Part shown: positions 6,619 through 35,370 of the stretch, in pieces
Layout of the letters: the number at the start of each line of letters is the position of its first letter
Position numbering within the stretch: the first letter of the stretch is position 1
The notes under the pieces: generated by a model
The model's database searches: none
The model's input: only the letters and a program-made list of their open reading frames with translations
What the model was told of the DNA's origin: nothing
Program-made: the position numbers and the translations under genes
Assembly (NCBI GenBank): GCA_016181275.1
Contig: JACOZQ010000028.1
Coordinates: 1 to 35,370 of the forward strand
Direction: 5' to 3'
DNA length: 35,370 nt
Source: Candidatus Woesearchaeota archaeon
GTDB lineage: Archaea; Nanobdellota; Nanobdellia; SCGC-AAA011-G17; ARS1403

Positions 6619-9600
6619 TTATTTTAATAATTCATCCCTTATTCTCATGAGCTTTTTCTCGTAGTCTTCTTCTTTGCCTTTGGACTTTGGAATTTCATAT
6701 TCTTGATAATCTCGATATTGAGATCCTAATTGCCTGCTCAGCCTGCTCTTTCTCCACTGCAGCAGCTTCATCAAGTTAAGTTTCTTGTATAATAAATAAC
6801 CTACTGCAATTACTAATATGATTAATATCCAGGTGATTATCCATACCAGATATTTTTGTATCAATGGCTTTGGCTTCTGCAAAACTTTGAAGCCTAATAA
6901 TCCCAGCTGCTTTTCAGCATCCTCCATGTATTTTTTAATAACTGCAACTCCATCTTGCGCAAAGATAATCTCATCCTGCTGCAATAAGCTTACAACTTCG
7001 TTAATTCTTTTCTTTGCAAGATCAATAAGTATTTTTGATTCAAATATATCATATCCTTGTGATTTTGCCTCTTCCAATGTGAACTCTAAATCATTTAATT
7101 TTCTTTCCAACAACCTAACTTCTACAATCAAAGTATCTGATATGCTCTTAATTCTTAACTTTCCTTTTTTAACTGCATCTCCCTCTCTTGATTTAATTAC
7201 ATAATTGAATGGATATATTGATGGGTTTGCATACGACGACGGATGCAGCTCTATATTAAAAGACTTGATTTCATCCGGAAGTATCGAAGAGTAATTTTCT
7301 GGAGCTATATTATACCATTGAGGGAGAAGCCCCTGCAGCTCGAGCTCAATTTCATGCAGAGTTATTGCTCCTGTATTTTTTAATGCAACATTGAACTGCT
7401 TTGTCCCGTTGTATTCAACTTCGACTGTTTCTGGAAAATCTGTAAACTCAATTGAAACTTCCCTATCTGGAACTCTTTTTGTTCCTGTACCTCTAGCACC
7501 GCCTTCAAAACTTGGTGCGGCTCCTGCTGCGACAGCAGATACTGTAGTGAATGTTTCAGTTGCCCCTGCCCTCTCTGTAAAATCAGATCCATAAAATCCT
7601 AAGAAGGTAATTTTAACATTCCCTTCAAAACTTGTTGATGGAGTAACTACATGGGTTTTTGTGCTGCTCCCTGCAACGAAAACAGTATCTTGTCCGCTGT
7701 CTAATTCTGCATCTGTATCTGTTCTAGTTAGATTCCAGTTAACAACCATGTCCTGACCATTATTACCTGTGTTTTCCAAGATTACAGAAATCTGCAGATC
7801 AGGAACAATATTGTCAGCAACGGAGATATCGCGAACATCAAATGGACCTCCAGTTAATTTCCAGAAGTCTCTTGCAAGATATTCCTCATTATTTCTTGTT
7901 GCATAGACTAAAGTTGTCCAGAATCCCTGGGTATTTCCAGAAGCTGTTGTGTAACTATAATTATATCTTCCCAAACCTAGCTCAGTAGTGCTTACATTTT
8001 CTGTAATGAAATTTCCTGTTGGGTCTATTAAATTTGCCTTAATATCTGTAGCATCACCAGTTAAATTCCCCCCGCTGTCGCGAATATAAATTTCGGTTGT
8101 GTAAACATTTCCAGCCTCTACTTCTGGGAAGCTGATGAGCTCAATGAAAGTTCCATTCAAGGTTTCGCTGCTGCTACTTCCGCTTCCATCTCCTCCAGGC
8201 CCTGTCACATTTACATTGAGATTATTGCTCGTCCAATTATTATAGTAGCGGTCTTGGTAGCTGATATTCAACGTGTAATTTCCTCCTGTGTTCGGTGTTG
8301 AAACAAACCATGTTGCAGTTCCAGTTGAATTTTCAGTTAGATTTCCAATTTCAGTTATATTTGGATAATCATTCAAGAAAACAAAATTTCCCTCTATAAT
8401 TAAAGTTGCATTGAGCTCAACTACTAAATCAGTTGCATTAAAATCACCGCTAATTCTTACCGTGCTGAGATGCTGAGCCAGCTCAGGATAGACTTCATTT
8501 TCAGCTGTTCCATTAGGCTGGAATACTGTAAACGTTGTGTTTGTACCATTGCCTTCATTTCCTGAAGAGTCATTTGCATATACTGTGAATTCCCATGTTT
8601 CATTTTCTTCAACTCCGAATGTAAAATTAAACAAATCTCCAGCTTCATTCACCATCGTGAAATTCCTTTGATCTCCTGATGTGTTTGTAATTCCAACCCA
8701 GACTATAGACAGGAAGGAATCATTTACTGTAGCCAGAATATCTGCTAATTCTCCTGAAGACAAATCCTCTGTAATATTCTCTCCCGCTATCGTCGGCGGA
8801 GTTATATCTGTAACCGAAACTATTGTAAAACTGCTGTCACTTGAATCGCTGTGCTCCAAGAAAGTGTCTGTGATATTTGCATCTATAAAGTAATTTCCAG
8901 ACAGCTCGCTTGTGTTCCAGCTGTAGCTGCAATTATTTGTCTGCGTAAAATCGCCGATGTCGCAATTTGTTTCATTCAAAACATAATTTGCAACTATCAA
9001 AGTGTCATTGTCTCCTGCAGCATCTGAATAATACAAATAAACTTCTAATGTGTCATTGTCTGAATCATTGACATCGAAGGTAATCAGCTCTGTCTGGTTG
9101 AAGCTCTCATCGCCATTTGGCCTTGTTATATTAATTAATGGACGGTGATTTACTGAAAAATTATTAGGACCTGATGCTGAGCTGCATGCATTTCCATCAT
9201 CGCACATTGCTACAAAATAATCAATAACGCTTGTATCATTTTCATAAGTTGTATAAGTACAGCTAACTGGATCTGTTGTCGCATTTCCTGTGCTGCAGAA
9301 TGTTACATTTGCACATCCAGAGACATCTATTGTTGCATTATCACATACATACAATCTGGCTGTTGTGGAATCCAAATCAGACCAGTCGACGGTAAAATTA
9401 ACATCGTTGCCGACATTAGTTGGACTTGTGCTGTTTGAATCATCTGAGACATCATCGATTACAGGCTCTGCATTCGCTATATGATTAATTGTCAGATTTG
9501 GAGCAAAATCAATATCATCTACATCGCTTGAGTTGAAACTTTTCAATTCTCCTGTGGTGTTGTCAGCAACCAATAACAAGCCATTGTTTGTATAACTCCC

Positions 9601-10161
9601 ATTAACCCATCCTTGAACTAAAGCTGTTAGATTAAATGTGTACCATCCTGTTGCACCTATTTCTGTAGAGAATATCGGAGCAGCTTCATAATCTCCTCCT
9701 GCTGCATCCCATGCTACTCCCGTCCCCCTATCATCATATGTTGCCTCGCTTTCATTCCATGAATTTGTAACTCTATGAAGGTTTACTGTTATGCTTGTGC
9801 TTGAGGTTACACTAAATACAAAAAATTCCAATGTTGCATTTTGAATTGTGTCTGTTGATACAATATCATCTGTTATGTTTTCAAATAGAAATAGAGACCT
9901 GTGACTTGATGCAGCTGTCTGCCCGACTATTAATTCTGTCTGGCTGCCGTAATTCTGCCCTGAGAAAACTCCTCCTTTTAGATAAGTGTCTATTCCAGAA
10001 GAGTTGCTTGAGTTGTACTGGTAGCTAGTTACTGCTAATCCAGTTATTCCACCGAATGGAAAAATGAAATAGACAATGGCTATCAATAATATCGAGCAGA
10101 AGAATATTGAAATCTGCAGCTTCTTTTCCCTGGAAAATTTATTCTTTTTTCTCCTGTTCAT
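6619..10161 (-). CDS. Giant sequon-rich surface protein with N-terminal DNRLRE domain, C-terminal helical stalk, TM and cytoplasmic tail
   Basis: 1180 aa. N-terminal signal-anchor ...FPFGGITGLAV; DNRLRE-type pattern (DTYLKGGVFSGQNYGSQTELIVG...VTNSWNESEATYDDRG...WVNGSYTNNGLLLV). About 52 N-X-S/T sites by hand count; C-terminal TM YLVWIITWILIILVIAVGYLLY. Confidence 0.8.
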   Translation of the reverse strand: MNRRKKNKFSREKKLQISIFFCSILLIAIVYFIFPFGGITGLAVTSYQYNSSNSSGIDTYLKGGVFSGQNYGSQTELIVGQTAASSHRSLFLFENITDDIVSTDTIQNATLEFFVFSVTSSTSITVNLHRVTNSWNESEATYDDRGTGVAWDAAGGDYEAAPIFSTEIGATGWYTFNLTALVQGWVNGSYTNNGLLLVADNTTGELKSFNSSDVDDIDFAPNLTINHIANAEPVIDDVSDDSNSTSPTNVGNDVNFTVDWSDLDSTTARLYVCDNATIDVSGCANVTFCSTGNATTDPVSCTYTTYENDTSVIDYFVAMCDDGNACSSASGPNNFSVNHRPLINITRPNGDESFNQTELITFDVNDSDNDTLEVYLYYSDAAGDNDTLIVANYVLNETNCDIGDFTQTNNCSYSWNTSELSGNYFIDANITDTFLEHSDSSDSSFTIVSVTDITPPTIAGENITEDLSSGELADILATVNDSFLSIVWVGITNTSGDQRNFTMVNEAGDLFNFTFGVEENETWEFTVYANDSSGNEGNGTNTTFTVFQPNGTAENEVYPELAQHLSTVRISGDFNATDLVVELNATLIIEGNFVFLNDYPNITEIGNLTENSTGTATWFVSTPNTGGNYTLNISYQDRYYNNWTSNNLNVNVTGPGGDGSGSSSSETLNGTFIELISFPEVEAGNVYTTEIYIRDSGGNLTGDATDIKANLIDPTGNFITENVSTTELGLGRYNYSYTTASGNTQGFWTTLVYATRNNEEYLARDFWKLTGGPFDVRDISVADNIVPDLQISVILENTGNNGQDMVVNWNLTRTDTDAELDSGQDTVFVAGSSTKTHVVTPSTSFEGNVKITFLGFYGSDFTERAGATETFTTVSAVAAGAAPSFEGGARGTGTKRVPDREVSIEFTDFPETVEVEYNGTKQFNVALKNTGAITLHEIELELQGLLPQWYNIAPENYSSILPDEIKSFNIELHPSSYANPSIYPFNYVIKSREGDAVKKGKLRIKSISDTLIVEVRLLERKLNDLEFTLEEAKSQGYDIFESKILIDLAKKRINEVVSLLQQDEIIFAQDGVAVIKKYMEDAEKQLGLLGFKVLQKPKPLIQKYLVWIITWILIILVIAVGYLLYKKLNLMKLLQWRKSRLSRQLGSQYRDYQEYEIPKSKGKEEDYEKKLMRIRDELLK

Positions 10162-10289
10162 TTTCCTTTTTTAACTCCTTTTTTCAGAAGATACTCGATA
10201 TATGTAGACCTTGGAACTAACCCGCGACTTTTATCAATGTTTTTCAGAAGATCTTCGCTCAATGTAATTGAAAGCTTATTTTTTCTCAT
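10158..10289 (-). CDS. 43-aa ribbon-helix-helix regulator (not in ORF track)
   Basis: Translation MRKNKLSITLSEDLLKNIDKSRGLVPRSTYIEYLLKKGVKKGK*. Its TGA overlaps the ATG of the 1180-aa surface protein gene (ATGA, 4 bp). Confidence 0.75.
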   Translation of the reverse strand: MRKNKLSITLSEDLLKNIDKSRGLVPRSTYIEYLLKKGVKKGK

Positions 10290-10298
10290 TATATTTAT

Positions 10299-10343
10299 TT
10301 ATCCTACTTATGCTACCTATATTATTAGTAGTATTTATCCTAC
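10299..10343. promoter_or_regulatory. Candidate RHH operator: 9-bp units on a 9-bp register
   Basis: ttatcctac at 10299-10307, ttatgctac at 10308-10316, ttatcctac at 10335-10343 (third offset by 27 bp = 3x9). TATA-like element on the minus strand at about 10350-10359. Confidence 0.6.
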
Positions 10344-10422
10344 TTTCAAATATATAAAGTTTTCCTAGCTCAAATAAAGAAATCTTAGAATTAAAAACAG
10401 AAATCTGAATAAAGATTAGAAA

Positions 10423-10800: not shown

Positions 10801-11649
10801 ATGGTTATTGAAACCCTTATTAATCCTGCCAAGGCAGAAGGGAGGCCCTGGGAAACTTTTTTCCTTGGTTTTTTATATGCTTCCATTGCTGTTTTCTTGA
10901 GTTTGTGGATCTTCCAGGATTATTCAAGTCTGGTAATGGTTTTTCTAACTGTTTTTGCGAGCGTCCCTCTTGTATATATGCTGATTGCGATTGAGGAGAA
11001 AAAAGACACTATTGATGTAAGCGAGAAATTTCTGCTGAAGGAGCATGGAAAAGCTTTGGCAGTTTTAATGTTTTTATTTTTAGGATATACAGTTGCTTTT
11101 TCTCTTTGGTTTGTTGTTCTTCCTGAATCAACTGTAACAAACATGTTCAATGTCCAGCTCGAAACAATAAGGAGCATAAATGCCGGAGTAACAAGCTTTA
11201 GCGCCGGCACAGGATTTGTAATGCAGATTTTCAGCAACAATATTAAAGTAATGATATTCAGCATAATGTTTGCTTTTCTTTTTGGAGCTGGCGCAATTTT
11301 CATTTTGACTTGGAATGCATCTGTCATTTCAGCTGCAATAGGCACATTCATAAAGAATAATGTTGCGAGCTATGCTCAAACTGCAGGCCTTGGAAAACTA
11401 ACAGGATATTTTCATATTGGAAGCCTGGGATTATTGAGATATATGATACATGGAATTCCTGAAATACTTGCTTATTTCGCTGCTGGTCTTGCCGGCGGCA
11501 TAATTTCAATTGCTGTAGTAAGGCATGATTTTGGAACAAAAAAATTTAACAAAATATTATATGACTCTATTGATTTAATTGTTATTTCAATTTTGATTTT
11601 ATTTATTGCTGCTCTTATTGAGGTGTTTATAACGCCGATTTTATTTTAG
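10801..11649 (+). CDS. SpoIIM/DUF95-like integral membrane protein
   Basis: Multi-TM; ...GAGAIFILTWNASVISAAIGTF...HGIPEILAYFAAGLAGG typical of SpoIIM. The TATA-like tatttaaat (10771-10779) lies downstream of the track start 10762, so 10801 is preferred. Confidence 0.75.
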   Translation: MVIETLINPAKAEGRPWETFFLGFLYASIAVFLSLWIFQDYSSLVMVFLTVFASVPLVYMLIAIEEKKDTIDVSEKFLLKEHGKALAVLMFLFLGYTVAFSLWFVVLPESTVTNMFNVQLETIRSINAGVTSFSAGTGFVMQIFSNNIKVMIFSIMFAFLFGAGAIFILTWNASVISAAIGTFIKNNVASYAQTAGLGKLTGYFHIGSLGLLRYMIHGIPEILAYFAAGLAGGIISIAVVRHDFGTKKFNKILYDSIDLIVISILILFIAALIEVFITPILF

Positions 11650-12384
11650 CTTCAACTTTTCTATTACAAATTTTTTTACATTTTTATAAGTAGGCAGTTC
11701 ATCTAATACGAAAGGATTTAACTCTTTCTCCCACACTGCCTTGATATTTTCTATTTTTCCTGCTATTTTTTGTGGATTATATTTTATATCAAATATCTTT
11801 AATTTTTCTTGCGTAAGCTTTTTATCTAATGCAGAAATCCTTAATAAGAAGAACAGGTCATAGACATCGCGTGCTTTTTCTCTAGTAAAAAGAGCGTGTA
11901 TTTTTTCTGAAATTATCTCTTCCAGCTTAAGTGACCTTAAAGAAAATGGGTTTATATCGATGAACTCAGAGATATAGTTTTTAATGTCAAATCCCTTTAT
12001 TACTTTATTTTTAAAATTTATATCAATTCTTAAAGTATTGTATTTTGTTAATATCCCTTTGCAACTTATTTTAATTAATAAGGAATCTTTTGTTTCTTTT
12101 ATTGATTTTATTTTAAAACAGCCTGTATTTTCCACCATATCCCTAATTATCTGTTCTATTGATTTGGTATTTAGATTTTCGAGCAATGAAAAATCTAAAT
12201 CTTCTGAAAATCTTTTGAGACCATATAATTTGTAAAGTGCCGTCCCCCCTTTGAAAATTAATTTATTTGTCTTTTTAAAAAGATGAAAGAGAAAAAGGTC
12301 CTGAAAATAATCTTTTTCTATATATTCTTTATTTGTTAGCCCTTTTTTCTTTCCTATCTCCATAAGGATTTCCTTTGTTATCAT
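11641..12384 (-). CDS. Nucleotidyltransferase, AbiEii/AbiGii toxin family
   Basis: LIFKGGTALYKLYGLKRFSEDLDFSLLE is the AbiEii nucleotidyltransferase signature. Confidence 0.85.
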   Translation of the reverse strand: MITKEILMEIGKKKGLTNKEYIEKDYFQDLFLFHLFKKTNKLIFKGGTALYKLYGLKRFSEDLDFSLLENLNTKSIEQIIRDMVENTGCFKIKSIKETKDSLLIKISCKGILTKYNTLRIDINFKNKVIKGFDIKNYISEFIDINPFSLRSLKLEEIISEKIHALFTREKARDVYDLFFLLRISALDKKLTQEKLKIFDIKYNPQKIAGKIENIKAVWEKELNPFVLDELPTYKNVKKFVIEKLKLK

Positions 12385-13059
12385 TTATTTGATATTAATA
12401 ATTACCCCCCATTTTTTATCTTTCTCTCCATTTTTCTTGGAAAGAGGATCTAACAATATATACTTATAATTGATAAACCTCTTAAGAGATTTATGAGCAT
12501 CATAATCCTGTTTTTCCATAAGATAGCCTATTCTTTTTACAATACTACTTTTTTTTATTCTTTTGAGATAATTAATCATCATTTCCTCGTCTATAGAATC
12601 AAGAGCCTCTTCAAATACGGAGATTGGAACCTTGCCGATAGAATCTATTATTGCTTTTTCCGGATCTGCTATTGGAATTTTAAAATCTTCATATTCCTCA
12701 TATTTAAAACCAAAAAAATAGTTTGTATGAAAAAAATTTATATTGCCGGCAAAATTTATTCTAGCCGGGCTTTTTGATGTTGCGCAGAAAACCCTATTCG
12801 GGATCTGCGTTACCAGCCTATGATAATATAATGCTGACATTCCAGAGATATAACTCGGCTTAACAAGAAAGGCACTTATTAGAAATGGATCTTTATGAAG
12901 AGTGTATACATTTCTTTTAATCTTAAAGACTTTTCCATTTTTTACCATTCGTCCTAAGAATTTTTTTGCATAGTCCCGATTATCTATCACTTGATTCACA
13001 TCAGAGAGAGAGAATACTGGAAATTTATTGAATCTACTAAGTATTTCTATATCATACAT
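12385..13059 (-). CDS. AbiEi-like antitoxin/transcriptional regulator
   Basis: N-terminal wHTH (FSLSDVNQVIDNRDYAKKFLGRMVKNGKVFKIKRNVYTL) and ISGMSALYYHRLVTQIPNRVF...DPEKAIID. Abuts AbiEii. Confidence 0.8.
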   Translation of the reverse strand: MYDIEILSRFNKFPVFSLSDVNQVIDNRDYAKKFLGRMVKNGKVFKIKRNVYTLHKDPFLISAFLVKPSYISGMSALYYHRLVTQIPNRVFCATSKSPARINFAGNINFFHTNYFFGFKYEEYEDFKIPIADPEKAIIDSIGKVPISVFEEALDSIDEEMMINYLKRIKKSSIVKRIGYLMEKQDYDAHKSLKRFINYKYILLDPLSKKNGEKDKKWGVIINIK

Positions 13060-34783: not shown

Positions 34784-35370
34784 TTAAGTTTTTCTGAGAT
34801 ATAAAGTATACATAATCGCATCTATACAACCACGTGCCATTAGTTCATAAGTAAAATTATTTTCTATTATCTTCTTGGATTCCTTCCCCATCTTCTCTTT
34901 TAACCTTTTGTCAGATAAAATCTTTCTTAAAGAATTATATAATCCTTCAATATCCTTCTCTTTAACCATAAAGCCGTTAATTCCTTGTTTGATTAGATCA
35001 TGAGCCCCTCCTGTTGCATCTGTTGATATTACTGGTTTGCCAAGAGACATCGCTTCATTTAATACAACCCCCCAGCAATCAGCATCATAATCACGAAATG
35101 TTGATGGAAGAACGAAGACATCACAAATTGAATAATAGAACCCTTTTTCGTAAGGACTGATTATTTTATCTTCGAAATGAATGTTTTTTATGTTTAACTC
35201 CTGTATTAACTTTTTAATTTCTACTTTAAATGGACCGTCTCCACAAATTAATAAGAACACATCATTTCTTTCCTTCTCTAATTTAGCAAAGGCTTTTACT
35301 AAAATATCTAATCCTTTATAATGCATTATCCTACTTAGATATAATATAATTTGTTTATGTTTTATATCAA
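34784..35370 (-). CDS. Family 4 glycosyltransferase, truncated at window end
   Basis: Frame open past track start (DIKHKQIILYLSRIMHYKGLDILVKAFAKL); CGDGPFKVEI; WGVVLNEAMSLGKPVISTDATGG. Confidence 0.85.
   Translation of the reverse strand, partial: DIKHKQIILYLSRIMHYKGLDILVKAFAKLEKERNDVFLLICGDGPFKVEIKKLIQELNIKNIHFEDKIISPYEKGFYYSICDVFVLPSTFRDYDADCWGVVLNEAMSLGKPVISTDATGGAHDLIKQGINGFMVKEKDIEGLYNSLRKILSDKRLKEKMGKESKKIIENNFTYELMARGCIDAIMYTLYLRKT

Follow-up and report, generated by a model that had tools for sequence, protein, structure and literature searches.

How might a DPANN-type archaeon control the proteins with which it meets hosts and neighbors? To our knowledge, almost nothing is known about such control, and a micro-regulator layout is easily missed because the genes fall below usual annotation size limits. 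The question is raised by a 35,370-nucleotide stretch of DNA from a tiny-genome Candidatus Woesearchaeota archaeon (hereafter the window), in which an earlier note had proposed that a hidden ribbon-helix-helix (RHH) micro-regulator of 43 aa is coupled to a giant surface protein and provides its autoregulated or switchable expression. Our analysis makes it probable that the two genes form an operon in which the RHH protein is an autorepressor, acting on two predicted operators in its own leader and coupled to the large surface protein.

A small RHH gene overlapping a surface protein gene

The RHH gene lies at 10158–10289 on the minus strand, and its translation is identical to the sequence first reported. 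A leave-one-out profile, built from relatives with the window protein excluded, ranked the window ORF fifth of the 5,835 ORFs in the genome (E = 4.5e-9). With the window protein included, the profile matches CopG (E = 4e-4), NikR and an RHH antitoxin in a PDB search. Taken by itself the protein is divergent, on a long branch with a best identity of about 45–49%. Its own Pfam match is weak (RHH_5, E = 0.11, short of the cut-off), its nearest solved sequence, CopG, is a weak hit as a single query (E = 0.14), and a single-sequence AlphaFold2 prediction with helices at residues 12–20 and 27–37 is a poor model (pLDDT 64), too weak for a fold search. With the threshold relaxed to E ≤ 1, seven of the nine members of A1 match Pfam RHH_1. 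The profile results support placing the window micro-ORF in the RHH (CopG/MetJ/Arc) superfamily, as the earlier note had proposed.

The downstream gene (6619–10161, minus strand) encodes a predicted surface protein of 1180 aa, the longest among the surface-like genes found in its genome. Pfam places a CBM96/disaggregatase-type domain at residues 56–226 (PF06848, E = 5e-17; PF24517, E = 1e-14), and a reading of the sequence finds an N-terminal hydrophobic segment, a C-terminal hydrophobic segment with a charged tail, and a richness in N-glycosylation sequons. The two genes do overlap by ATGA (10158–10161, minus strand), the TGA stop of the RHH gene sharing bases with the ATG of the surface gene, and a -4 overlap is common among the micro-RHH cassettes of relatives. 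A single RHH–surface transcript is likely because of this overlap and because there is no separate intergenic region, and we infer that the two genes are translationally coupled. The same ATGA coupling would suit a small ORF whose chief role is that of a leader peptide, or of an enhancer of surface-gene translation, rather than of a regulator, but the recognizable RHH sequence and the matching predicted operators in the leader make this very improbable.

We rejected a type II toxin–antitoxin pair, as the RHH partner is the 1180-aa surface protein, which has no toxin-like domain match in Pfam. The RHH protein could instead be an orphan antitoxin or a mobile-element relic, with operators that serve the RHH gene alone and the surface gene as a bystander. 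Against this stand the likelihood of one shared transcript and the content of the window operon, in which no toxin-like gene was found. Elsewhere in the window, an AbiEii-type toxin gene occupies 11641–13059 (minus strand; PF08843, E = 2e-29), and an AbiEi-like gene (weak match) lies upstream of it; the two likely form a type IV toxin–antitoxin pair.

Promoter and predicted operators in the leader

Upstream of the RHH gene, the minus strand carries a TATA-box-like TTTATATA (10351–10358) that adjoins a BRE-like GGAAAAC (10359–10365), and the usual archaeal TATA-to-start spacing predicts a transcription start at about 10328–10333. An exact 14-bp direct repeat, TATTTATCCTACTT, occurs on the plus strand at 10296–10309 and again at 10332–10345. 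Within the 80-bp leader no exact direct repeat is longer (P = 0.0002 for this one, dinucleotide shuffles), and the repeats are located at the RHH gene's own promoter, a feature of autoregulated RHH operons. They could be chance repeats in an AT-rich leader, and direct repeats of at least 14 bp do occur in 7 of the 871 gene leaders of the genome. The shuffle result and a code and motif common to relatives (described below) leave that explanation hardly any credence.

The earlier note had described TTATSCTAC units at 10299, 10308 and 10335 on a 9-bp register. All three units are present on the plus strand. The register holds for the first two; the third lies 27 bp beyond, and no unit stands at 10317 or 10326. 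We therefore rejected the idea that a 9-bp iteron register organizes the array, since this spacing separates just two units and the spacings in relatives differ. A fourth half-site, TAGTAGTAT (10326–10334), was absent from the earlier description and pairs in inverted orientation with the unit at 10335. Four half-sites in two putative operators describe the array better. O1 (10326–10345) consists of the inverted half-sites TAGTAGTAT/ATCCTACTT, fits the residue-to-base code of relatives, and sits between the TATA box and the expected start site. O2 (10299–10318) lies in the leader immediately ahead of the RHH start codon and consists of the tandem half-sites TTATCCTAC-TTATGCTAC, offset by 9 bp.

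TTATSCTAC has four matches in the whole window versus 0.58 expected, and none of 100 shuffles gave four. Genome-wide there are 15 matches in 942 kb. Those before RHH genes are the three in the leader and one at C30:28552, and the remainder are mostly inside coding ORFs. TTATCCTACTT also precedes a second Thr9 RHH gene in the same genome. Another TTATCCTAC occurs in the window at 35326–35334, at the start of an ORF on the minus strand (34784–35326), and no RHH gene was found upstream of that ORF within the window.

The suggestion that expression is switchable found no specific support, and the earlier note's description of the surface protein as dominant is likewise unsupported. Between 10150 and 10450 the promoter is flanked only by weak, imperfect arms of 13–16 bp, and we rejected phase variation by an invertible promoter because there are no long inverted repeats around it.

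In the arrangement that we favor, RHH dimers would bind the inverted pair O1, which directly follows the TATA box, and the tandem pair O2 just ahead of the start codon, and the bound protein would block transcription initiation of both the RHH gene and the surface gene. A burst of surface-protein synthesis would co-produce the repressor, so that output would be capped. The ORF, its likeness to RHH proteins, the repeats and their placement, the leader motif across the family, the correlation of residue with base and the surface-gene enrichment are computational results; binding, repression rather than activation, translational coupling and the purpose of the arrangement are what we infer.

The main rival to autorepression would be activation: the RHH protein may be a DNA-binding activator or a mainly trans-acting regulator, placed upstream of the surface gene only for co-expression. 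Such is the case of CdrS, a 55-aa RHH protein encoded three nucleotides upstream of ftsZ2, which has 18 chromosomal binding sites (PMC8406309, PMC7439475) and is reported as an ftsZ2 activator (PMC7439475). The presence of an identical operator word ahead of another RHH gene in the genome also makes cross-talk possible. However, the TATA box precedes both predicted operators in the window, and no wider regulon is visible among the TTATSCTAC matches outside RHH leaders. An operator downstream of the TATA box normally blocks initiation. This site position favors repression, as it does for F55 and further RHH proteins of archaeal viruses, and we consider an activating or mainly trans-acting role rather unlikely.

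Micro-RHH relatives and a residue-to-base code

A profile search found micro-RHH genes of 43–57 aa in many of 103 genomes from the order, and most of these genes overlap a large gene at its start. Across the class, 207 of 378 genomes match the RHH profile, a count to which fusions of an RHH domain with a nucleotidyltransferase-like protein also contribute. At L002, L003, L004, L005, L007, L009 and L010, the RHH domain is fused N-terminally to such a protein of ~250–285 aa, and several of the fusions in this set adjoin a UDP-glucose 6-dehydrogenase gene. The leaders of related micro-RHH genes share a motif: AAGTA/TACTT is present in 32 of 42 of them versus 16 of 111 control leaders (p = 8.5e-13, with kinship not discounted).

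Residue 9 of the RHH lies on the predicted DNA-reading strand. Among relatives in the order this residue correlates, by eye, with the base three before CTACTT. Thr9 goes with A in eight of eight RHH proteins and Ser9 with T in nine of ten (the one exception has C), and Arg5-Ser7-Thr9 proteins go with G in three of three. The window protein has Thr9, and A stands at the code position in all four half-sites.

The code was spotted post hoc in the order and afterwards tested outside it, with patterns that left the code base free, in the 378 genomes of the class. All eight out-of-order matches, which are pattern matches only and some of which belong to one family, obey the code. Thr is paired with A in G112, G198, G157 and G252 (in the last, the RHH is part of a larger fusion protein), and Ser with T in G312 (where the last codon base lies beyond the match and the residue is Ser or Arg), G292, G261 and G281. 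Reversed-pattern controls gave no out-of-order match in the same 378 genomes. Thr9 and Ser9 are intermingled on the RHH tree, with about five changes and clustering no greater than chance; independent Thr/Ser contrasts number only five, one of them on a well supported branch, which is too few for a sign test.

These correlations are indirect evidence that strand residues of the RHH may read operator bases. Together, the leader motif, the residue-9 code and the matching half-sites give good comparative support to predicted autoregulation through the gene's own operator. A residue-to-base code would allow genome-wide operator prediction in unculturable organisms, and it is cheaply testable with a 43-aa peptide and 80 bp of DNA.

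Micro-regulators at surface genes and in known systems

The direct conservation check that the earlier note had proposed, of the RHH–surface pair in relatives, gave a mixed answer. No RHH was found upstream of the two best homologues of the window surface protein, and we rejected direct conservation of the window RHH with a homologous surface gene. A small ORF nevertheless occupies that position in both: the best homologue (G020) has a 73-aa winged-helix-like ORF that overlaps its start, and the other (G082) an 85-aa ORF of a type not recognized and not RHH. A public-genome scan with the window surface protein returned no relative, and one with a surface protein of another genus matched only three records, all labeled 'Candidatus Nanoarchaeia archaeon' and of the same order.

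Small RHH genes do stand directly upstream of other surface genes. A secreted or surface partner follows the micro-RHH in one genus (L075, L076, L100), in another (L079, L083, L103), and in three families (L093, L095, L101). The majority of the partners in the order are cytosolic (SNF2 helicase-methyltransferase, kinase, AAA and others), and the window's own genome has three micro-RHH genes with cytosolic-type partners (L068–L070). This cassette of a micro-RHH and a large cytosolic gene is widespread (L068, L069, L070, L072, L077, L080, L087, L096, L099, L104 and others), with PLP enzymes also among its partners; its promoter layout is near-identical across examples, with operator words flanking the TATA box on both sides.

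We took a census of regulators directly upstream of surface-like genes, defined heuristically by a hydrophobic N-terminus, sequon density and few further hydrophobic segments, and compared these with the remaining genes that encode 250 aa or more. In the window's own genome (883 kb), a micro-regulator precedes four of nine surface-like genes versus 3 of 367 others. The complete genome G013 has one at three of five versus 2 of 349 (one of the latter resembling a RelE-type protein, not an RHH), and G037, about 46% covered, at none of four versus 5 of 164. Pooled, the three genomes give 7 of 18 versus 10 of 880 (p = 6e-9; p = 1e-7 with the window removed), the enrichment coming from two of the three.

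The regulators upstream of surface genes in the census are RHH or MazE/AbrB-like. By Pfam, one of the latter is above the cut-off for MazE and a second just below; the other two were assigned by a profile built from them and a pattern recognized by eye. MazE/AbrB-like micro-ORFs of 44–105 aa lie directly before surface-like genes at L125:17353, L122:17744, L122:19723 and L212:16915, and in the L125 leader TTAGTACTA flanks a TATA-like stretch on both sides. As longest-repeat tests mostly gave no significant result for MazE/AbrB-like leaders and others, we do not claim autoregulation for these regulators.

The neighborhoods bear on whether the surface gene is a bystander of an orphan antitoxin or relic. 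The genes that follow micro-RHH relatives are for the most part unrelated and often accessory, and homologues of the window surface gene come without this RHH, as such a reading would have it. The strong enrichment of micro-regulators at surface genes speaks against it, and we judge it improbable. In the genomes compared, the exact RHH–surface pair is not conserved, a regulator in that slot recurs, and its apparent fold is interchangeable (RHH, MazE/AbrB-like or winged-helix-like). On the autorepressor reading, the exact partner would not be ancient; surface genes of this lineage would tend to hold some private micro-regulator, in a slot refilled by unrelated DNA-binding folds. More tentatively, surface proteins could be organized as cassettes of one surface gene and one private micro-repressor, with regulators swapped over evolution, allowing independent and perhaps alternate expression in host attachment.

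Several known systems share parts of this arrangement. F55 (SSV1), SvtR (SIRV1) and AvtR (AFV6) are small RHH proteins that bind tandem or inverted repeats at promoters, their own among them, and SvtR represses a tail-fibre gene (PMC5569661). The predicted operator position in the window fits these known archaeal RHH repressors, because F55 sites overlap the start site and BRE (PMC5569661). They differ in being viral, in serving several viral promoters, and in not being overlap-coupled to a cellular surface gene. CopG of plasmid pLS1, the best, though weak, PDB match for the window protein and also that of the family profile, is a 45-aa RHH autorepressor, but of plasmid copy number genes at a bacterial promoter. 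Anti-CRISPR operons likewise contain small autoregulators, the Aca proteins, each co-expressed with the gene that it limits (PMC11065993), but Aca proteins are viral, serve anti-defence genes and are typically HTH.

In the literature searched, which was covered in part, we found no description of micro-regulators for surface genes in DPANN archaea. The pairing of a micro-RHH with a structural gene is already known from cdrS–ftsZ2, and CdrS is the best-studied archaeal relative in architecture: its gene, which codes for a single-domain RHH of ~55 aa, sits just ahead of a large structural gene and shares a transcript with it (PMC8406309, PMC7439475). The protein differs in being a reported activator with several targets, under CdrL in haloarchaea, and its authors did not detect CdrS in DPANN (PMC8406309, PMC7439475). 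In the window, unlike in the haloarchaeal system, the downstream gene is not ftsZ2 but one for a surface protein with a CBM96/disaggregatase domain.
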